Below, one piece after another: positions 19,686 through 37,818 of a stretch of DNA of 44,630 nucleotides. A model generated the notes under the pieces. That model worked only from the letters and a program-made list of their open reading frames with translations. It was not told where the DNA came from and did not search any database. Made by a program: the position numbers and the translations under genes. Position 1 is the first letter of the stretch. Each line of letters starts with the position of its first letter. This stretch comes from an uncultured Leptolinea sp. (GTDB lineage Bacteria; Chloroflexota; Anaerolineae; Anaerolineales; Anaerolineaceae), in contig CAIKMQ010000035.1 of the NCBI GenBank assembly GCA_903828565.1, positions 1-44,630 on the forward strand. Direction: 5' to 3'.

Positions 19686-21355
19686 CACAGAAACATATCA
19701 CTGACAACCTGGATATACTGATGGGGGTCCTGCCACCGGAGATCGCGGATGCCGTCCGCCGGGCGGATCGCAGCGAGCTGTTGATTGAGATCATTTTAGA
19801 TCAGGGGCGGGTGCCGACCGCTCGATTCTATGATCATGAGGTACCCCTGCTGGAGCGCGAAGTCACCGCCCAGGATATTTCTGCGGTGGTGAAGCAGCTG
19901 GGCGATTTTGACGCGGATAACCGCGCCGGATTGGAGCGCACCCTGCACCGCATCTCTGCCATCCGCAACCGGCATAACCATATCGTCGGCCTGACCTGTC
20001 GTGTAGGACGGGCGGTCTACGGCACCATTGATATCATCGAAGACCTGATAGAAAGCGGCAAGAGCCTGCTGTTGCTGGGGAAACCGGGCGTGGGCAAGAC
20101 AACCATGCTGCGTGAAGCCGCACGGATGCTGGCTGAAAATCACCGCGTGGTGATCGTGGATACATCCAATGAGATCGGCGGAGATGGGGATGTCCCCCAC
20201 CCGGCTGTCGGGCGTGCCCGCCGCATGCAGGTGCCAAAACCATCCCTGCAGCATGAGGTGATGATCGAAGCGGTTGAGAATCACAACCCGGAGGTCATTG
20301 TCATAGATGAGATTGGCCGCGAACTGGAAGCCCAGGCTGCGCGCACCATCGCGGAGCGCGGAGTGCAGCTGATCGGCACCGCCCACGGCCGCACGCTGGA
20401 GAACCTGCTCTTGAACCCCACCCTGTCAGACCTGGTCGGCGGGATCGAGTCGGTGACGCTCTCGGATGAAGAAGCACGTCGCCGTGGAACCCAGAAGACC
20501 GTGCTGGAGCGGCGCTCACCGCCTACCTTTGATATTTTGATCGAACTGCTGGACCGCGACCGTGTGGCCATCCATGCAGATGTAGCTGCTGCGGTGGACG
20601 CGCTGGTGCGCGGCTACCCCGGGCCTGTCGAAGTCCGCTATCACCGGGAGGACGGCAGCATTGCGCGCGAGATCCAGACGCCGGAGCCGAGCGCCGCACC
20701 CGCGACCGGCAGCCGGCCGGGCAAACGCGGCACGGCAGACTTTGGTCCGCCAATGGGAGTTCAGGGTACCCGTCGCCAGGATGCGAACCGCATCCGCGGG
20801 CAGGAAACCCCGGGGGCTGGTTGGCCGGTGAACGCTGACACAGCCGGCGAGGAAGAACCAGCCGGCAGCCGGACTTACGATCATCCCAACCAGCCGATCC
20901 GGCTGTATCCGTACGGGGTAGCTCGCAATCGCCTTTCGCAGGCGGCTAAACGACTCGGTGTGCCGGTGATGGTCGTCCGCGATGTGGCCGATGCCCAGGG
21001 GTTGATCACACTGCGGGCGTATTACCGCAACCGTCAGGCAACCATACTGGATGCCGAGGGCCGCGGGATGCCGGTGTACGTCTTACGATCCAATACCGTC
21101 AGCCAGATGGAGCAGTTTCTGGCTGAGATCTTCAACCTGAACGAGAACCCGGATGCCAACCCGGCATCACAGGCTGCGGTGGCACAGGCGCAGAGCGCTG
21201 TGGACCTCATCCGCAAAGGGGAGAGATTCGTAGACCTGCCCCCCGCGGCCGCCACCCTGCGCCGGCTGCAGCATGAGGTCGCCAAGCAGAACCAGCTGAC
21301 CTCGCAATCCTACGGAAAGGAGCCGTACCGCAGGGTACGCATCTTCCGCGAATGA
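19682..21355 (+). CDS. Ycf45/SpoIIIAA-like AAA ATPase with C-terminal R3H domain
   Basis: A 557-residue protein. Residues 1-120 are an N-domain (LMGVLPPEIADAV). The ATPase core has Walker A GKPGVGKTT (about 131-140), DTSNEIGGDGDVPHPAVG, Walker B VIVIDEIGRELEA and GTAHGRTLENLL, like SpoIIIAA and chloroplast Ycf45. A Pro/Gly-rich disordered linker (about 335-395) separates it from a second globular part (IRLYPYGVARNRLSQAAKRL). The last 60 residues are an R3H nucleic-acid-binding domain (RRLQHEVAKQNQLTSQSYG). Proteins of this kind are widespread in cyanobacteria and Chloroflexota. A nucleic-acid-linked motor or regulator is the likely role, but none is proved. It overlaps tmk by four bases. Confidence 0.87.
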   Translation: MTQKHITDNLDILMGVLPPEIADAVRRADRSELLIEIILDQGRVPTARFYDHEVPLLEREVTAQDISAVVKQLGDFDADNRAGLERTLHRISAIRNRHNHIVGLTCRVGRAVYGTIDIIEDLIESGKSLLLLGKPGVGKTTMLREAARMLAENHRVVIVDTSNEIGGDGDVPHPAVGRARRMQVPKPSLQHEVMIEAVENHNPEVIVIDEIGRELEAQAARTIAERGVQLIGTAHGRTLENLLLNPTLSDLVGGIESVTLSDEEARRRGTQKTVLERRSPPTFDILIELLDRDRVAIHADVAAAVDALVRGYPGPVEVRYHREDGSIAREIQTPEPSAAPATGSRPGKRGTADFGPPMGVQGTRRQDANRIRGQETPGAGWPVNADTAGEEEPAGSRTYDHPNQPIRLYPYGVARNRLSQAAKRLGVPVMVVRDVADAQGLITLRAYYRNRQATILDAEGRGMPVYVLRSNTVSQMEQFLAEIFNLNENPDANPASQAAVAQAQSAVDLIRKGERFVDLPPAAATLRRLQHEVAKQNQLTSQSYGKEPYRRVRIFRE

Positions 21356-21981
21356 CAGGTTATTTCATTACTTTTGAAGGGCCGGATGGCTGCGGCAAGA
21401 CCAGCCAGATCCCGCCGCTGGCGGAGTACCTGCGCGGCCGGGGTGTGGATGTGCTCACCACGCGTGAACCCGGCGGTACAGAGATCGGCGACCAGGTGCG
21501 CACCATCATCATGGATCTAAAGAACAAAGGCATGGACCCGCGCACGGAGATACTGCTTTTTCAGGCTTCCCGCGTCCAGATCGTAGAACAGGTCATCCGC
21601 CCGGCATTGCTTGCCGGCAAGGTGGTGCTGTGCGACCGCTACGCGGATTCCACGCTGGCATACCAGGGGTACGGCCACCGCAGTGACCTGAGATTCCTCA
21701 GGCAGCTGCTGCATTTTGCCACCGGCGGATTGCAGCCCGACCTGACCTTACTGCTCGACCTGGACGCGCGCGAAGGGTTGAAACGCCGTCAGGGCGGCAA
21801 TGTGGAATGGAACCGCCTGGATGATTACGACCTCGAATTCCATCAGCGCGTACGGCAGGGATATCACCAGCTGGCAGTTGAAGACCCGTCCCGCTGGCAG
21901 GTTGTAGACGCTTCCGCTTCTCGTGAAGCGCTGCAGCAGGAGCTGAGGGGGATTATAATGGAACGATTATCGCTGGTTTAG
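21352..21981 (+). CDS. tmk: Thymidylate kinase
   Basis: A 209-residue kinase phosphorylating dTMP to dTDP with ATP. P-loop FEGPDGCGKTSQ, the TREPGGTEIGD block that binds dTMP, the DRYADSTLAYQG motif and a lid region (RRQGGNVEWNRLDD) are present. Length is normal. The ATG at 21352 overlaps the stop of the AAA-R3H gene by four bases. Ten bases after its TAG begins the DsbA-cyclophilin lipoprotein gene, with AAGGAAGA as ribosome site. Confidence 0.96.
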   Translation: MTGYFITFEGPDGCGKTSQIPPLAEYLRGRGVDVLTTREPGGTEIGDQVRTIIMDLKNKGMDPRTEILLFQASRVQIVEQVIRPALLAGKVVLCDRYADSTLAYQGYGHRSDLRFLRQLLHFATGGLQPDLTLLLDLDAREGLKRRQGGNVEWNRLDDYDLEFHQRVRQGYHQLAVEDPSRWQVVDASASREALQQELRGIIMERLSLV

Positions 21982-21991
21982 AAAGGAAGAT

Positions 21992-23272
21992 ATGAGACCA
22001 TTGAGTAAAAAAGCCGCCTTCGGCCTCCTGCTGCTCAGCCTTGTGCTGTCCAGCTGCAAGCCGGCTGCAGCGGAAGTTGTACCTACTGTGGCACCCACTG
22101 CGGTGCCGGCTGGAGACAGCGCGGCAACCATCGTTCAGCCTACCCCCGGCCCTGCCACTTGCCAGCTGGCCGCGAACGCGCTGCCGGCTGCATCCAGTGA
22201 AGAACTGGCCGCGCTGGCTGCCATCCCCCCGGTCAATGAGAATGACCTGATACACGGGTCGCCCACCGCGCCCATCACCATCCTCGAATACAGCGACTAT
22301 CAATGACCGTACTGCGCTTCGCTTGCTCCCGTGTTGGAGCAACTCCTCGCTGAGTACCCCGAAGATGTTCGTGTTGTCTTCCGTCATTTCCCGCTTCCCA
22401 GCCATCCCCTTTCCCTGCTGGCCGTTCAGGCTGTAGAAGCCGCCGGTTTACAGGGTAAGTACTGGGAATTATCAGATGCCATCTTTGCCCAGCAGACGGT
22501 CTGGTCTGCTATGGACCCGGCCGCTTTTGAAGCCTGGCTGGTGGAACAAGCATCCGCCCTCTCGCTGGATACCGCGCAATTTTCCACGGATATGAAGAGT
22601 GATGCCCTGGTGCAGAAAGCCCGCGATTATCAGCAGGCTGCCTATACTGCCGGCGTCAGCTATACACCTTTTGTGATGTTCAATGGCCGCTCCTACCAGA
22701 ATGTTGTGGACCTGAGCAACATCAACAACCTGCGTTTCATGGTCGAGCTGGTCAAAGGCAGCCAGGGACAGTTCACCTCCTGCCCGTCGACCGTTTTGGA
22801 AGCGGGTAAGAATTACCGCGTGACGCTGGAAACCGAAGAAGGCAATATCGTCCTCCGGCTGGATGCTGATAAGGTACCGGTTTCTGCCAATGCCTTTGCC
22901 TGGCTGATTCAGCAAGGTTGGTATGATGACACCACCTTCTACTACGTTCAGCGCGGCGCAGGGGTGGATATGGAGTATGCCATCACCGGCGATCGCACCG
23001 AAACTGGTGCCGGTACACCCGGTTTTATCATCACCACCGAAATGGGTGCCGGCCAGAGTTTTGATAAGCCCGGCAAGGTGGGTTTCTTGAACGGCAGCCA
23101 GCTGTTCTTCACCTATACCGCTGTACCTGCCCTGGATGGCCGCTACACCCTGTTGGGTGAAGTGGTGGAAGGCATGGAAATCCTGGAGAACCAACCTGCC
23201 ACCGGTTCTTCCGCTGACAGCAAGCTGGTTCCGGGATTGCGGATCATCCGCGTGACCATTGCGGCTGAATGA
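21992..23272 (+). CDS. Probable selenoprotein: DsbA-like thioredoxin-fold and cyclophilin-type PPIase lipoprotein
   Basis: A single 426-residue gene if the in-frame TGA at 22304-22306 is read as selenocysteine (residue 105). Parts: lipoprotein signal with lipobox LSSC (Cys 22), a Pro/Thr/Val-rich linker, a DsbA-like domain (ILEYSDYQ-U-PYC, then VVFRHFPLPSHPLS and a helical insert, then GVSYTPFVMFNGR with cis-Pro), and from about residue 270 a cyclophilin-like peptidyl-prolyl isomerase domain (LETEEGNIVLRL, YDDTTFYYV, DGRYTLLGEVVEGME). Relatives have C-P-Y-C, so the TGA replaces exactly the attacking Cys. Coding is intact for 322 codons after it, and TGA is an ordinary stop elsewhere here (for example xpt). 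A stem-loop at 22309-22357 fits a bacterial SECIS. The protein would catalyse disulfide and proline folding steps on the outer face. A sequencing error TGC/TGT to TGA or a pseudogene are the alternatives. Confidence 0.82.
22309..22357 (+). promoter_or_regulatory. Candidate bacterial SECIS element
   Basis: Starting two bases after the TGA, GTACT-GCG (22309-22316) pairs with CGC-TG-AGTAC (22348-22357, TG bulged). After an internal loop, TTGCTCC (22323-22329) pairs with GGAGCAA (22336-22342), closing the loop CGTGTT. The apical loop starts 23 bases after the TGA and has G at its second position, with GU as in known SelB-binding loops. These agree with the published bacterial SECIS rules as I remember them. 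Confidence 0.72.
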
Positions 23273-24459
23273 CACCCCCGGGTAAACGAAACAAGATTAA
23301 CAGCATACTCCAGCTCGCAGTCAGCGGGCTGGGGTTGCTTTTTTTACTGGCTGTTGCCGGCCTGCGGGGGATCTTCTCGCTGTTCAATGGCGAATCTTTC
23401 CCCCTGGCCATCTCCGGCATACTCGACTTGCTTCTGCCGGCTGCGCTGCTCGTCCCCGCGATACTCTATAGCCTGCTGCGCCTGACCGGCCGCGAGGCAG
23501 GGACATGCGCCGTGAACCCCCCGGGGTGGAGCGGTCTGCTGCTGCTGGCCTGGCCGCCGCTGATCTTGTGGTGCGCCGCGCTGCTGGAAACAGGCGATCT
23601 TGCCATGCCGCTCTTCAGCCTGGTGCGCTTCACGGCCATGCTTACGCTGGCAGCCTGGGTGTACGGGGTGGCAGGTTTCCGCCTGCCCGCCCTGAACGCC
23701 CGCCGCGGCTGGGGATTGCTGGCAGCCGGCATGCTGGGGGGAACCCTGCTTTCAGGGCTGCTGGAAATGCTGCTGGTGAGCGCGCTGGCGTTGCTTGGCG
23801 TGCTGGCGCTGCTGCTGTCACCTTCGCTGGCGGACAGGTTGCTGGCGATCTTTCAGGCTGCTGCCGGCGCGCCTGACCCGACTGCCGCGCTGCAGGCACT
23901 GCAGCCCCTGTTGGATTCACCGGTATTGATCGGCGCGGCTTTTCTGTTGATCTCTGTTGCCATTCCCCTGATCGAAGAAGCGGTGAAACCCGCCGCGATG
24001 TGGCTTCTATTGCGGAAAGGCCTGACCCCCGCGGAAGGTTTTCTGGGAGGTGTGGTTTGTGGTGCCGGTTTCGGGTTGGTGGAGAACCTGATGAGCACCG
24101 CCCCGCTGCTGGAGGGGGACTGGCTGCCGGTGGCTGTGATGCGCGCCGGTACCACACTGCTGCACATGCTGGCCAGCGGATTGGTGGGCCTGGGCCTGGC
24201 ACGTTGGCGGGCAGGCGGCGGATTTTTACAGGCGGCCGGTGATTACCTGGCTGCCGTCGCCCTGCATGGTACCTGGAACGGCTTCGCCCTGCTGTTGGGG
24301 TTGGAGATGCTGAACGGGGTGGATCTCACGCCCGCGGCATACGGGCTGCTGGGTGGAATGGCGTTGCTTTCCCTGGCCTGCCTGGCTGTTCTGCTGCGGC
24401 TCAACCGGCACTTACGCCGCCAGGCGGCAGCACAGGCACCGCCGCAAAACATGCTATAA
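23269..24459 (+). CDS. PrsW-like glutamic-type intramembrane protease
   Basis: A 396-residue protein with about nine or ten hydrophobic segments. The conserved PrsW blocks are seen: IEEAVKPAAM (EE in a membrane helix), GAGFGLVENL (E), TLLHMLASGLVGLGLA (H) and ALHGTWNG (H). In Bacillus, PrsW cleaves an anti-sigma factor at site 1; here the substrate is unknown. The family belongs to the CPBP/Abi-related glutamic membrane proteases. Start ATG overlaps the stop of the preceding selenoprotein candidate (ATGA), so the two are co-translated. No anti-sigma gene is nearby. Confidence 0.87.
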   Translation: MTPPGKRNKINSILQLAVSGLGLLFLLAVAGLRGIFSLFNGESFPLAISGILDLLLPAALLVPAILYSLLRLTGREAGTCAVNPPGWSGLLLLAWPPLILWCAALLETGDLAMPLFSLVRFTAMLTLAAWVYGVAGFRLPALNARRGWGLLAAGMLGGTLLSGLLEMLLVSALALLGVLALLLSPSLADRLLAIFQAAAGAPDPTAALQALQPLLDSPVLIGAAFLLISVAIPLIEEAVKPAAMWLLLRKGLTPAEGFLGGVVCGAGFGLVENLMSTAPLLEGDWLPVAVMRAGTTLLHMLASGLVGLGLARWRAGGGFLQAAGDYLAAVALHGTWNGFALLLGLEMLNGVDLTPAAYGLLGGMALLSLACLAVLLRLNRHLRRQAAAQAPPQNML

Positions 24460-25208: not shown

Positions 25209-26372
25209 TTAACTATTGCCTTTGGCACGATTGTGCGTCTGGCAGAGCATCTGGCAATTATCCATACTGGAAGAGCCTCCTTTACTCCAGGAGGCTACAT
25301 GGTCGGCATCCATTTCACTTTGCTTCCAGATTTTTCGCTTGTTGGCATCTGGACCTATGGCACATAGCGGGCAATTCGATTCATTTTTCGCTTTAGCGGA
25401 TGTAGTTTGCGCTTCATAAACAGTTTTCTTTGTCGCATCATCGAAGACACGCACCTCCAGCAACCTGGTATCTGCAGAACCGCCCAGAATATACTCAAAG
25501 ATGCCTTTACGCCTTTTAATATATGGATCGCCATACAGTTTATGTACCTGCGCTGAAACCGCTGCCGGGTTGTACGGGTTTAGGTGATACTGTACATACA
25601 TTCTGCCCCATTCCAACCCACACATTTCCGGCTCCACGTCGTCGAATACCCTTGAAACCCAATCTAACACACTGTTAAAGTATGTTTTTAACTCTGTAAT
25701 TTGATTATCGAAACGATGCAAGCTCATATAATCGCTGATATTACCCTGGCTGACCCAATCCAAAGCGCGCTCAAGATATTGTTGTCTCTTTTCACTGCCC
25801 GCAATATAGGCGCTCCATTTTTGAATATTGGCATTCTGGCTGTTGCTGAACTCCGTTTTTGCCAGGGTTACAAAAGGCCCTGAGTAAATGGCATTCAATA
25901 ATTCCTGGTCGTTGAGTGGCACACCGGCGATATTGATCGTTTTGAACCACTCTTTAATCTCACTTTCGTTACCCTCGCACTCATAAATTAAGAGTTGTGT
26001 TGTCGAGATCAGGCTTTGTTTATCAGAAGCAATTCCACGAAAATACTGCTCCATTCCATTTTCATCTTTTACGGCAAATTTATTGGTGAAGTAACGCCCA
26101 AAACTGGTGATGCGCTGCTGTCCGTCCAGCACTTCCAGGCTGCCATCCGACTTTTTATTGAAGTAGAACAGACCTAACGGGTATCCTTTTAACAGCGAAT
26201 GTATGACAGCCACATCCCTTTTACCATCTGCATAGATGTAATTGCGTTGATACTCGGGTTGGATAGTGAGTTGACCGGATAGACCAAACAACCCCTTGCC
26301 TTCCAGTTCGTTGTAGATGAAACCCTTACAAATGTCTGCGACTGTAATATCTGTTCGTAGCGTCGTTTTCAT
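25209..26372 (-). CDS. DUF262 and HNH endonuclease domain protein, restriction/defence component
   Basis: A 387-residue protein. The N-terminal half is a DUF262 ParB-like domain with PEYQRNYIY and [12 protein letters not shown] (the DGQQR signature). A helical middle follows. The C terminus is an HNH nuclease with paired CPLC and CQTH cysteine/His sets around [20 protein letters not shown]. This is the layout of DUF262-HNH proteins found in defence loci (GmrSD-like branch). Here it lies four bases overlapped downstream of an EcoRI-like adenine methyltransferase, so it is probably the nuclease of a restriction-modification unit. A nucleotide or modified-DNA requirement typical for DUF262 enzymes may apply; the specificity is unknown. 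It is A+T-richer than its neighbours. Confidence 0.85.
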
Positions 26373-27472
26373 GCTTCTGCCCTCCTGACTTTAATGAATA
26401 TACGTTTATACACCCTCTCACCCCTTACAATTGGTTGCGAAAACTTACTCTTTGCATCCCAAAGCCCAACAGAGAAGCCCTTACCTTCACTTTCCGTTGC
26501 CCCAACAATTACAAACTGTTCAGGTGAATACTTATCCAAAAAGCTGATGGGCACGCCCATCACGCCGGGATAATCAGACGGGATGGCATCGGTGTATGGG
26601 ACTTCGATCGCGTCGTAGTTATCATATTTTACATAACCCACCCCAGTGATCTCTTTATGCTTACTGTATTTCAGGTTCTCTTCCATCGTCATTAATGGCA
26701 GGGGTTTGTGACGCCTGCCGTGATCCAAATTGGTAAACCAACATACTCCTGGCACGCGGTTGACTTTACTCCCGTTAGCAAATCGCTCAAATTTATACGA
26801 TTCCGCATAAACAAAACCCTCGGGGACAAGGAAGTACATACCTGTGTTAAAGTTGGTCGAACCTAACCACACCTTATTCCCTTTAATTAATGGGAAGACA
26901 TCTTTGTATGTAATGGCATTCATGTTGCCGATTATCAAAAATTTTTTATTTCCTTGCACAATCCAGTTTAGAAACTCGCGAAACAAGGAGAATGGCGGGT
27001 TGGTAATGATGATATCTGCCTGATCGCGCAACTCTTTTATCTCCTTGCTTCGAAAATCCCCATCGCCATCCAGGTAATGCCATTCCAGGTCATCCACATT
27101 CACTTTCTGGTCCCCCGTCTTATCGTGAGTTAACGTAAAGATCTTACCATTCTTTGTGGTTTTCCCTGCGTCATATTGCGGGGCGGCAGTTTCAAACAGG
27201 GTGGGTAGGTATGCGTTTTTATAGGTTTTACTGTCAACGGCATAACTGGTGCTGATCAATTTCTTCAACCCGAGCCCCCCGAAATTCTGTGCAAAATATC
27301 TGGTAAAGTTGCTCCACTCCGGGTCGTCACAGGGTAACAGCACAGTTTTTCCCCTGAACACATCGGGATTGTATTCAAGATAAGCTGACATTTCCTTCTC
27401 AATATCGGGATATTGTGTGTAAAACTCGTCGTTCTTGGCGTTTTTTGCCTGCGAGAGAGTATTGTTGGCCAT
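26369..27472 (-). CDS. Adenine-specific DNA methyltransferase, EcoRI family
   Basis: A 367-residue N6-adenine methyltransferase. The start [19 protein letters not shown], then [26 protein letters not shown], match the special N-terminal motif I of the M.EcoRI type. The catalytic motif IV is NPPF (in [16 protein letters not shown]). The rest ([30 protein letters not shown]) also fits the family. It would protect host DNA from the nuclease encoded four bases overlapping downstream. Recognition need not be GAATTC; that sequence is present several times in the window. The gene is A+T-richer than the flanking genes, as for mobile R-M systems, but I see no integrase or repeat ends. Confidence 0.9.
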
Positions 27473-33822: not shown

Positions 33823-36800
33823 TTAATGGCGGTGGCGTTTACGCTTGGCTGCTTCGGTGGATTCGGTGTTGGCTTCCGCGTCCACTGCTCCGGCAGCTTC
33901 CGTACTGGCGGTCTGGGCCGGCCGCGGGCGATAATTGAATGCGCGCCCGATCACACCCGAGCGGATGTCGCGCAGGAGGGTGCTGAACAATTCGGAAGCC
34001 CGGGCTTTATACTGCACGAGCGGGTCGCGCTGGGCATAGGCTTCCAGCCCGATGGAAACACGCAGCCCTTCCACGCGGGTCAGGTATTCCACCCATAGTT
34101 CAGAGATAACCGACAGCAGCAGGTGCCTGTGGAGTTCATTCATCACCTGAGTGCCGAGGGCTTCCACGGCAGTCGGCCTTACTTCTTGCGGCCATTCAGC
34201 CTGAGGTTGGCGCAGTAGTTCAGTGGTGCGTTCTTCTCCCAGTTGTTCACTGAGCAGCGCGGCAAAACGTCCACCGGGGATGACACCCAGCTGGCCCAGG
34301 CGCGTCAGTTCACTCTCGCCCCACATATCGCGCATCGCGGCGCGGGCCCCAGCCAGGTGTTCCAGCACGTCCGCTATTAAGCCTTCGGGGCGCTCATCTG
34401 CCAGCAGCCGGGCTGCCAGGTAGATATAGCGCAGGCGGGTGGTGGGCTGCCAGGCCTGTTTGTGTGTCTTTTTATCAAAGATCAGGCGGGTACTGCTGGC
34501 CATGACTTCGAACATGGCGATCGCCAGGCTCTCATCCGCCTGCGGATGCCCCATGCGATCCAGAGCGGATTGCAGATCGCGCCCTACTTGCCCTTCTTTA
34601 CCGAACAGGCGCGAGCGGGTCTTTTCTAGATGGTCTTGTACCTGGCTGAGCAGTGTGTCAGCCACATCCTGCCAGGCTTTACCCTGCAGGTCGGCTGCCT
34701 TGATCGGCAGGTTATCTTCCAGGCGGCGTTCAAAAGCCATCAGCAGGCGATTGACGGTCAGCCCGGTGAGCAGATCCACCACCTGTTCCTGCAGGGGTGC
34801 TTGAAGGCCGCGCGGGTCGTTGGTCAGCAGGCGTACCTGTTCACTGGAAAGGCGCAGCGGCAGCCCGACGCTTTGGGCCAGTCCCTCCACCAGTTCCACC
34901 GGCCGGCGGGTATCGGTCTCATCCCGCTCTTCCAGGCCTTCCAGATAGTTTTGCAGGGTCTCCAGCCGTTCTTCCACCTGGGTTTCAAGAGCGGATTGCT
35001 GGGTCGTGACCAGATCGGCTGCGCTTTGTTCCAGGCGGGTGCGTTCCGCGTCGAAAGACTGCTCGGCGAGTTGCAGCAGAGATTGTATGAACCCATTCTC
35101 ACCTGAATCCAGCTGGATTTTATCAAGCAGCATACGCTGGGTATAGGTCGGGTAGTATGTCCCTACAGCGCGGATGGCCGGCTGGACACCATCCAGGTAG
35201 GCCAGCAGCCGCCAGGGGCCTTCTTCATCGGCTATGGCTTCAGGGATGCGTCGCGAAAGTTCATCGCGGAAGATCTCTTCAACATCCTCCGCCAGATCTG
35301 CCTTGGTAAAGACACGGTTGCGCTGCCCGTAGATGCGTTCACGCTGGCTGTTGAGGACATCATCGTATTCCAGCAGGTGCTTGCGGATATCAAAATTGGC
35401 GCCTTCCACACGTGTTTGAGATTGTTCGACCAACCGGCCTACCAAACCGCTCTCGATCGGCAGGGATTCATCCAGGCGCAGGCGGCTCATCATATCTTCC
35501 ACCTGGCCTCCACCAAAGAGGCGCATCAATTCATCCTGCAGGGAGAGATAGAAGCGGGAGGACCCGGGGTCTCCCTGCCGGGCGGCACGGCCGCGCAGCT
35601 GGTTGTCGATGCGGCGGGCTTCATGCCGCTCAGACCCGATGACGTGCAAACCACCCAGGGCCCGCACGCGCTCCATATTATCCAGGTATTCCAGGACGGT
35701 TTTGACGCCCTGTTCATAGATCCCATAATCATCAGCTGACAACTCGCGCAGAGCAGAGCGGCGGGCTTCCATGGTCATATCATAGGCAGCAGGTACCCCG
35801 GCATGGGTCAACGCGCGGTTGGCATCTCGCAGGGCTTCATCGGGCAGTTCGCCCCCCAGTCGGATGTCCACACCGCGGCCGGCCATGTTGGTGGCGATGG
35901 TCACTGCGCCAAAAGCGCCTGCCTGGGCAATGATCAGTGACTCTTCATCGTGTTTCTTGGCATTCAACACCTGGTGCGGGATGCCGGCTTGCAGCACGGC
36001 TGTCAGGCGCGGGCTGTCGGCAGGAGATAATTCCAACAATTTGAGCAATTTTGGCAGATTCTCCGGGTCTTCTGGGTTATAAGACAGATTCAACTGCCGG
36101 GCCAATTGCCGCATTTCAGCAATATTCAGTTCATCCACCGGCTTGTTCAAGAAGAGCAATTCCTGAACTTCGCGTTCATCGTCCAGGCGGTTGGCGCGCG
36201 ACATCCAGATATACCGCAGCAGCAGCGACATCAACAGCCGGCGGATCGGTTCGGCGTGCAGCCGCAGGCTCAGACGCTCGGAATGCTCCACGGAGGTAGT
36301 GCCGACCAGCTGCGGCCGGCCGGTGACATAGAAACGGACCACCTCGAGCGTAATGGCGCGCAGTTTTGCTTCTTCGGTGCGGTAGACCACATCCGGGTAG
36401 TCTTTACGGCGCCAGAATACCGGTGTTTTGCTTTCATCCCCGCGCCGGGCGTAATAAGAGAAGGTGTAGCCCTTCTCATCTTTGGTCTTGATCTCGACCA
36501 GCGGGCTGTCATCCCGGCTGGCATTGTATTCCAGGTTCATGGGGATGGGCAGCACATCCAGCTTGTAGATCTTGTGGAACTCTTCCGCTTCGGTCAGCGC
36601 GGTACCGGTCATGCCCGATAATTTGGCATACATGCGGAAGTAGTTCTGCAGGGTAATGGTGGCGTAGGTGACATTCTCGGCTTCCACCTTAACGCCTTCT
36701 TTCGCTTCCACTGCCTGGTGCAACCCATCCGACCAGCGGCGTCCGGGCATCATCCGGCCGGTGAACTCGTCCACAATGACCACCTTGCCCCCCTGCACCA

Positions 36801-37818
36801 GATAGTCCTTGTTCTTTTTATATAGCAGCTGCGCTCGCAGAGATTGTTCCAGGTAACCCAGCAGTGATTCCTGTTCGGGGGTGCTGTCCTCCGGGCGCTC
36901 CGGGTCACCCAGGGGCATACCCAGCAGCATTTCCACATGCAGCAACCCGGCTTCTGTCAGGCTGACCGCGTGGTCTTTTTCATTGATCTCGTAATCTTCG
37001 GGGATGAGCTGGCGTACAACGGTAGCCATCTTTTGATAATGCTCAGCCGATTCAGCCGCAGGGCCGGAGATAATGAGCGGAGTTCGTGCTTCATCAATGA
37101 GGATGTTATCCACCTCATCGACAATGGCATAGTGATGCCCGCGCTGCACCCGATCTTCCAGGCGCATGGCGGTGTTATCCCGCAAATAATCAAAGCCAAA
37201 TTCACTGTTCGTACCATAGGTGATATCTGCCAGGTATGCCTGCCCGCGCGGTTCCAGACGCATCTGGTTCTGGTCTTCGTGGGGAGATGTGCGTTCAAGG
37301 TCCACGATGTACGCCATGCGGCCGTTCTCTGTGCGGGTCGCCATTTGCAGCACACCGACGGTCATTCCCAGCGCCTGATAGACAGGAGCCATCCAGCGGG
37401 CATCGCGCCGTGCGAGGTAATCATTGACGGTTACCAGGTGCGCGCCTTTTCCTTCGAGCGCGTTCAGGTACAGGGGAAGTGTGGCCACCAGGGTTTTGCC
37501 CTCACCGGTGCGCATTTCCGCGATCTGTCCGGTATGCAGGGTGATACCGCCGATCAACTGGACATCATAATGACGCAGGCCGATGGTCCGCTTCGAGGCT
37601 TCACGTACTGCCGCGAAAGCTTCAGGCAGCAGGTCATCCAGCGTCTCGCCGTCTGCCAGCCTTTGCCGAAATTCGCGGGTCTTCTCTTTTAGTCCCTCAT
37701 CGCTCAGCTGCGTGAACGTTGGTTCCAGATCGTTGATCTGCCTGGCGACCAGTATCATTTGTTCGATCGCTTTACGGTTGGGGTCACCGCCGATCACGCG
37801 GATAATATTCTGTAACAT
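33823..37818 (-). CDS. secA: Preprotein translocase ATPase SecA, unusually long
   Basis: A 1331-residue SecA; common lengths are about 800-950. It keeps the first nucleotide fold (MRTGEGKTLVATLP; VDEVDNILIDEARTPLIISGP), the preprotein crosslinking domain, and the second fold (IATNMAGRGVDI; GSERHEARRIDNQLRGRAARQGDPGSSRFYLSLQDEL). Two additions are seen. About 90 residues are inserted between GTTSVEHSERLS and GIPHQVLNAKKH, inside the second nucleotide fold (RANRLDDEREVQELLFLNKP...). The C-terminal region after the second fold is about 550 residues, some 250 longer than in E. coli, with coiled-coil stretches (DAERTRLEQSAADL). The usual C-terminal Cys/His zinc site for SecB is absent; the protein ends AAKRKRHRH. 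It is probably the sole SecA, followed by surE. Confidence 0.95.
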   Translation of the reverse strand: MLQNIIRVIGGDPNRKAIEQMILVARQINDLEPTFTQLSDEGLKEKTREFRQRLADGETLDDLLPEAFAAVREASKRTIGLRHYDVQLIGGITLHTGQIAEMRTGEGKTLVATLPLYLNALEGKGAHLVTVNDYLARRDARWMAPVYQALGMTVGVLQMATRTENGRMAYIVDLERTSPHEDQNQMRLEPRGQAYLADITYGTNSEFGFDYLRDNTAMRLEDRVQRGHHYAIVDEVDNILIDEARTPLIISGPAAESAEHYQKMATVVRQLIPEDYEINEKDHAVSLTEAGLLHVEMLLGMPLGDPERPEDSTPEQESLLGYLEQSLRAQLLYKKNKDYLVQGGKVVIVDEFTGRMMPGRRWSDGLHQAVEAKEGVKVEAENVTYATITLQNYFRMYAKLSGMTGTALTEAEEFHKIYKLDVLPIPMNLEYNASRDDSPLVEIKTKDEKGYTFSYYARRGDESKTPVFWRRKDYPDVVYRTEEAKLRAITLEVVRFYVTGRPQLVGTTSVEHSERLSLRLHAEPIRRLLMSLLLRYIWMSRANRLDDEREVQELLFLNKPVDELNIAEMRQLARQLNLSYNPEDPENLPKLLKLLELSPADSPRLTAVLQAGIPHQVLNAKKHDEESLIIAQAGAFGAVTIATNMAGRGVDIRLGGELPDEALRDANRALTHAGVPAAYDMTMEARRSALRELSADDYGIYEQGVKTVLEYLDNMERVRALGGLHVIGSERHEARRIDNQLRGRAARQGDPGSSRFYLSLQDELMRLFGGGQVEDMMSRLRLDESLPIESGLVGRLVEQSQTRVEGANFDIRKHLLEYDDVLNSQRERIYGQRNRVFTKADLAEDVEEIFRDELSRRIPEAIADEEGPWRLLAYLDGVQPAIRAVGTYYPTYTQRMLLDKIQLDSGENGFIQSLLQLAEQSFDAERTRLEQSAADLVTTQQSALETQVEERLETLQNYLEGLEERDETDTRRPVELVEGLAQSVGLPLRLSSEQVRLLTNDPRGLQAPLQEQVVDLLTGLTVNRLLMAFERRLEDNLPIKAADLQGKAWQDVADTLLSQVQDHLEKTRSRLFGKEGQVGRDLQSALDRMGHPQADESLAIAMFEVMASSTRLIFDKKTHKQAWQPTTRLRYIYLAARLLADERPEGLIADVLEHLAGARAAMRDMWGESELTRLGQLGVIPGGRFAALLSEQLGEERTTELLRQPQAEWPQEVRPTAVEALGTQVMNELHRHLLLSVISELWVEYLTRVEGLRVSIGLEAYAQRDPLVQYKARASELFSTLLRDIRSGVIGRAFNYRPRPAQTASTEAAGAVDAEANTESTEAAKRKRHRH

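Follow-up and report, generated by a model that had tools for sequence, protein, structure and literature searches.

The gene at positions 21992..23272 (+ strand) of the window, i.e. the whole analyzed stretch of 44,630 nucleotides from an uncultured Leptolinea sp., raises the question whether an in-frame TGA at the reactive site of a DsbA-like protein marks a broken gene or a codon for selenocysteine (Sec). The TGA (22304..22306, + strand) is codon 105 and shares its frame with the ATG at 21992 and the terminal TGA at 23270-23272; the 427 codons of the gene, Sec codon and final TGA included, comprise 104 sense codons ahead of the internal TGA and 321 behind it, followed by the stop (read-through translation, Pfam and 125 aligned readings). 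The original prediction had a TGA replacing the leading Cys of a CPYC motif of DsbA type, with an intact frame of 322 codons thereafter: the read-through product would indeed carry Sec at position 1 of UPYC and the frame is intact, but the figure counts the stop. A probable ribosome-binding site, AGAAAGGAAG (21980..21989, + strand), stands directly ahead of the ATG, to judge from the sequence. The residues around the TGA read ILEYSDYQ-U-PYCASLAPVLEQLL, and the Pfam matches to Thioredoxin_4 (residues 82-242, 79.1 bits, above cut-off) and DSBA (PF01323; residues 96-246, 56.5 bits versus a cut-off of 25.6) both run uninterrupted across it, which bears out the DsbA-like context that had been proposed for both sides of the TGA. 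The pieces of 104 and 313 residues are the result of mechanical ORF calling on this gene. The genome assembly to which the window belongs, as contig 35, comprises 2.22 Mb in 48 contigs (completeness 99.25%, contamination 2.44%).

For comparison, 151 related genomes (own genome included) were searched, with a protein match at E <= 1e-40 in 115 of them; tblastn on the fetched stretches gave 133 pieces, and the 125 that started at or before query residue 80 and ended at or after residue 180 were kept. These 125 readings represent 114 genomes, the locus fetched from genome G018 (L162) having given no kept piece. Their residue at the reactive site is Cys in 88 and TGA-encoded in 19; the remaining 18 carry Ser (5), Ala (5), Thr (2), Asp (2) or, once each, Arg, Lys, Gly and Asn. 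Close relatives, whose alignment the original prediction had proposed as a check, thus show TGA or Cys at the exact site, with the same TGA in 18 other genomes. The matched parts of all readings contain 19 in-frame stops; since every one of them is TGA and all fall in one alignment column, chance is excluded. As an ordinary stop, TGA closes 44 of the 125 homologues, among them the own gene and altogether seven of the 19 Sec genes, and it also ends 2 of the 15 further window genes with Pfam support that were checked, so that the genetic code is standard, as had been stated. Behind the TGA, the gene differs from the same-genus copy (L006) at 142 of 644 first and second codon positions versus 164 of 322 third positions, which indicates that coding constraint persists after the TGA. 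On this comparative evidence the DsbA-cyclophilin gene with its internal TGA is almost certainly a whole gene.

Some of the 18 copies with neither Cys nor TGA (e.g. L067, L072, L083, L103, L112, L143) also lack the second Cys of the motif, and some sit in tandem with a Cys copy; copies with Ser, Ala, Thr, Asp etc. at the reactive site are possibly non-redox paralogues. Sec and Cys copies stand in tandem in genomes G033 and G055.

The strongest evidence added beyond the original prediction is a covarying hairpin behind the TGA (22323..22342, + strand), with a stem of seven base pairs (22323-22329 with 22336-22342) and a six-base loop (CGTGTT, 22330-22335) that contains a G; it begins 16 bases past the TGA. 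A G in the small apical loop is given as a feature of bacterial SECIS elements in the available text of PMC1088965. When the 57 bases from the TGA onwards were folded as RNA, most Sec genes gave this hairpin, and unguided RNAalifold predicted the identical seven pairs. With the paired columns fixed (20-26 against 33-39 in alignment A1), all seven pairs were formed in 17 of the 19 Sec genes and six in the other two, versus seven pairs in one, six in five and fewer in 82 of the 88 Cys genes; with sliding allowed, 30 of the 88 Cys genes attained six pairs somewhere, and seven were still reached by one only. Two-sided compensatory changes preserve pairing at four of the seven pairs, with 98.5% of cells paired in place versus 24-55% when the hairpin is slid by 1-3 columns, and the covariation score (0.310; shuffled mean 0.112) was equalled in none of 500 shuffles.

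Codon choice in the loop region follows the same division: CCCGTG is present in 19 of 19 Sec genes versus 2 of 106 non-Sec genes. Among genes with the same residue, the Pro codon is CCC in 19/19 Sec versus 12/43 Cys genes (p 6.6e-8) and the Val codon GTG in 19/19 versus 11/27 (p 1.7e-5); the Sec homologues are related to one another, and these per-gene tests of codon choice and hairpin are accordingly not independent. Folding energy relative to synonymous shuffles differed modestly over 45 nt (mean z −0.96 in Sec genes, −0.10 in Cys genes), and the difference was smaller at 54 and 60 nt. A covariance model (R1) ranked this gene best in its own genome, at 43.1 bits with the next place at 21.3; R1 was built from the 19 hairpins including that of the window, so that the 43.1 bits are given by construction and only the gap is informative. 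The Rfam scan of the window gave no match at gathering score. Judged by place, loop and covariation, the hairpin behind the TGA at 22304-22306 is identified as a bacterial SECIS element.

The four weaker R1 places in the own genome (21.3, 16, 15.8 and 12.4 bits) were checked for open frames; nearby TGAs lie between open stretches, the longest of which extend 115-122 codons past the TGA (L171, L173), and no further selenoprotein gene is claimed from them.

The Sec machinery, which the original prediction had named as the thing to look for, is encoded in the own genome with all parts above curated cut-offs: tRNA-Sec (70.8 bits; ARAGORN agrees, anticodon tca), selB (331.3 bits), selA (515.5 bits, on the contig shared with tRNA-Sec) and selD (354.4 bits; L165, contig C9:15133-16065). 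The selD gene contains one in-frame TGA, in SNCAGUASKLN, which we take to be the known Sec site of SelD, and is probably the second selenoprotein gene of this genome. Formate dehydrogenase was considered as a further Sec client and rejected: the Fdh-alpha gene of the own genome (770.6 bits, over cut-off) has no in-frame TGA in its matched part.

Across the 151 genomes, selB exceeded the cut-off in 114, tRNA-Sec in 115 and selA in 119; G109 has two tRNA-Sec and two selB genes over cut-off. The co-occurrence of machinery and Sec form was tallied for selA, selB and tRNA-Sec in the 114 genomes with an assessed copy, many of them incomplete assemblies. Two or more of these parts were found in 19/19 Sec genomes versus 75/95 non-Sec genomes (Fisher p 0.018) and at least one in 19/19 versus 79/95 (p 0.043); requiring all three left no enrichment (13/19 versus 67/95, p 0.68). 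In this tally, six of the 19 Sec genomes lacked one part; laxer filters recovered the tRNA-Sec of G097 (53 bits) and found none in G103. In the 16 assessed genomes that have none of the three parts, every copy is non-TGA. By itself, this co-occurrence test is weak.

Several other explanations of the TGA have to be weighed against this background. That the gene decayed into a pseudogene through a nonsense mutation in its active-site Cys codon might be supposed from the single base that separates TGC/TGT from TGA, and from the replacement of Cys by other residues in 18 of 125 homologues; yet an identical TGA recurs in 19 genomes, the matched parts of the 19 Sec genes are free of any other in-frame stop, the part behind the TGA is under coding constraint in comparison with the same-genus copy and the TGA is accompanied by a conserved, covarying hairpin, all of which makes such a decay exceedingly unlikely. 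A single-base sequencing or assembly error, for which the division of the assembly into 48 contigs might be quoted, is extremely improbable in view of the same TGA and hairpin in the same-genus genome and 17 others. A lineage-specific reassignment of TGA as a sense codon found no support, and the termination of this gene, of 2 of 15 other window genes and of 44 of 125 homologues by TGA leaves it a vanishingly small probability.

Ordinary or regulated read-through would rely on a near-cognate tRNA for Trp or Cys, or would retain the TGA as a switch for producing a lipoprotein of 104 residues. The first 104 codons alone could indeed specify an exported lipoprotein, and SelB binding is not provable from folding alone. 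However, the TGA falls on the catalytic Cys, the covarying hairpin with G in its loop lies at SECIS distance, the genome encodes a complete Sec pathway together with a SelD that has its own in-frame TGA, and the short form would be devoid of most of the thioredoxin-fold domain; read-through of this kind is therefore very unlikely. The sequence features of a bacterial selenoprotein, i.e. a UGA at a Cys redox site, a SECIS element and selA, selB, selD and tRNA-Sec, are all present. Site conservation, the covarying SECIS and the Sec machinery thus support the selenoprotein originally proposed, and the reading as a whole, hairpin-directed Sec105 in an exported DsbA-cyclophilin lipoprotein, appears correct with very high probability.

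A lipoprotein signal and a C-terminal cyclophilin domain were, like the hairpin, not part of the original prediction. The predicted signal peptide (21992..22057, + strand) ends at Cys22 in LVLSSC, which we read as a lipobox; Cys22 is conserved in 118 of 125 homologues and in 19/19 Sec forms, and in the AlphaFold model a helix (6-20) precedes it. The DsbA-like/Thioredoxin_4 domain (residues 82-246; 22235..22729, + strand; Pfam, AlphaFold, Foldseek) contains Sec105, Cys108 and Pro226. The second motif Cys is conserved in 116 of 125 homologues and in all 19 Sec forms, and Pro226 is invariant (125/125); PF01323 domain, UPYC and conserved Pro226 are features shared by members of the DsbA-like UxxC selenoproteins. 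Cys57 and Cys264, present in 115 and 117 of the 125 homologues, perhaps form a structural disulfide. The cyclophilin-type domain (residues 277-421; 22820..23254, + strand) matches Pro_isomerase (PF00160) at 65.9 bits versus a gathering score of 21.7, and was present in 52 of 52 members scanned. The AlphaFold2 model, calculated from an alignment whose 52 rows comprise all 19 Sec genes together with 33 of the 88 Cys genes, has a mean pLDDT of 89.2 and a pTM of 0.78, with low confidence in the stretch 27-45; its Foldseek matches are cyclophilins as well as alpha-DsbA1, BdbD and DsbA. Taken together, the product is a probable exported lipoprotein in which a DsbA-like domain is fused to a cyclophilin domain.

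The position of the usual catalytic Arg of cyclophilins, which we take to be that of Arg55 of human CypA, is occupied by Tyr318 in the window protein and by Phe in the same-genus copy L006, so that the catalytic Arg by which an active cyclophilin PPIase is recognized is absent here; Arg is found at the equivalent position in 102 of 125 homologues and in 15 of 19 Sec forms. Cyclophilin catalysis is doubtful in the window protein because the Arg is replaced in both genomes of the genus, and the domain is more likely to act as a binding module than as an enzyme.

According to the proposed mechanism, SelB and Sec-tRNA-Sec would bind the hairpin just 3' of the UGA, and selenocysteine would be inserted at position 105 with no termination. 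The product would then be exported and lipid-anchored through Cys22, and would act as a thiol/selenol-disulfide oxidoreductase of DsbA-like type, in which Sec105 reacts, Cys108 resolves and Pro226 forms the cis-proline beside the site; the fused cyclophilin domain may hold or isomerise the same client proteins as the DsbA-like domain. Oxidases of DsbA type oxidise their substrates and are regenerated by DsbB or VKOR. The own genome encodes a VKOR homologue (91.1 bits), and a VKOR-driven oxidative path is therefore possible, with a membrane VKOR as plausible reoxidant. The conserved Sec/Cys site, the covarying SECIS, the Sec machinery and the architecture of two domains are shown by the sequence; that Sec is actually inserted, that the protein is exported, and its redox direction, partner and substrates are inferred.

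The selenoprotein gene lies between a thymidylate kinase gene (21352..21981, + strand) and a gene for a PrsW-type membrane protease (23269..24459, + strand), both recognized by Pfam; the ATG of the latter overlaps the selenoprotein stop (ATGA). Similar genes occupy the same places in the same-genus genome L006 (translations compared by eye). Elsewhere in the window, a SecA of 1331 residues (33823-37818, − strand) has approximately 190 residues between its DEAD and P-loop domain matches, a spacing that is presumably longer than usual. A gene for a GmrSD_N/HNH nuclease (25209-27472, − strand) adjoins an EcoRI-type adenine methylase gene (Pfam), and the two are probably a restriction-modification pair.

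The distribution of the Sec form was traced on a maximum-likelihood tree of the 125 readings, calculated by a quick method, unrooted and with the site and SECIS columns excluded. Sec and Cys forms alternate on this single tree: the Sec label requires at least 12 changes, six of which are forced by well-supported branches (32 of the 122 inner branches are weak). The hairpin place and loop that the 19 Sec genes have in common suggest that the Sec form descends from one ancestor and was lost repeatedly; transfer or recombination would also fit the Sec/Cys pattern. A Cys gene of genome G108 (L079) retains the complete hairpin and loop, and L181, from an Anaerolineales bacterium, is identical to it over 45 bases and likely comes from the same genome; these copies probably record a recent change from Sec to Cys. 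In five genomes, the tRNA-Sec gene shares a contig with the DsbA-cyclophilin gene and lies approximately 0.2-1.1 kb from the matched part of the latter (tables compared by eye), beside a Sec gene in G120 and G132, a Cys gene in G094 and G113 and a Ser gene in G107. Loss of Sec is favored because L079 retains the hairpin and because tRNA-Sec adjoins Cys and Ser genes. Tentatively, and with slightly less than even confidence, the Sec form may be regarded as ancestral in its order (probably Anaerolineales) and as lost many times to Cys, Ser, Ala and others, with a fossil SECIS element (in the Cys copy L079/L181) and Cys or Ser genes next to tRNA-Sec left behind; together with SelD, it may be one of a small number of clients for which genomes of this kind retain the Sec machinery.

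In a second collection, the named relatives that match most of the protein belong to the Chloroflexota and are mostly Anaerolineae MAGs. Among the 80 named loci listed, TGA stands at the site in at least six (L179, L182, L195, L200, L201, L207), a count to which only matches spanning the site contribute and in which TGA forms are under-sampled, one of the three search patterns having demanded Cys at the site; L200 is likely the G025 copy that is already among the 19 Sec genes. The standard hairpin is complete (7/7 pairs) in L179, L182 and L200. At the standard place it is absent in L195, L201 and L207 (1, 5 and 4 of 7 pairs, respectively); these three fold other predicted hairpins near the TGA that differ in place and loop. 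Phage records gave part matches only (2 records).

DsbA-type selenoproteins as such are not new but have been in print since 2005 (PMC1088965). A survey of 2006 gave three selenoproteins for the Chloroflexota in its available text (PMC1794560), and the main text of a 2026 review has no occurrence of "cyclophilin", "Chloroflex" or "Anaerolin" (PMC13188914). In the open-access literature, outside which most subscription papers and preprints fall, no DsbA-cyclophilin selenoprotein was described in titles or the beginnings of abstracts, and no account was found there of repeated Sec/Cys exchange in a cyclophilin fusion or of a hairpin-retaining Cys copy. The present family extends Sec to an exported folding protein of two domains that is widespread in one order of Chloroflexota. 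It constitutes a natural experiment: because Sec and Cys alternate, tandem pairs exist (G033, G055) and one Cys copy keeps its hairpin, close homologues can be used to test what Sec costs and what it gains in oxidative folding.

Among solved structures, the model comes closest on the DsbA side to alpha-DsbA1 (Wolbachia), BdbD (Bacillus subtilis) and DsbA (Corynebacterium diphtheriae), with Foldseek E values of approximately 1e-9 to 1e-8; their chains of 185-250 residues are devoid of a cyclophilin domain and presumably carry Cys instead of Sec. With the cyclophilin-type PPIases (PF00160) the window protein shares its C-terminal domain, which is here fused to a DsbA-like domain and has the Arg replaced by Tyr318. 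The best NCBIfam match (residues 12-235) is NF041057, the Rcas_1661 family thioredoxin-like (seleno)lipoprotein, which is likewise a lipoprotein with UxxC and to which the available text of the 2026 review links a UxxC "DsbG-like protein" (PMC13188914). The score of 86.0 bits, however, lies below the curated cut-off of 190, as do those of four fusion proteins and two single-domain proteins of the own genome (74.8-128.7 bits), and the model, with 247 positions, has no cyclophilin part. A close described relative is the DsbA-like UxxC selenoprotein, a family that Zhang et al. 2005 reported from the Sargasso Sea (PMC1088965) and that the 2026 review tabulates as "DsbA-like protein form 1" (PMC13188914). 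Both have the PF01323 domain, Sec as the first residue of UxxC and a SECIS element after the UGA (PMC1088965); in the available text of the two sources the known family is defined by COG2761/PF01323 with no mention of a cyclophilin domain (PMC1088965, PMC13188914), whereas the window protein has a lipobox ahead of its DsbA-like domain and a cyclophilin domain behind it.
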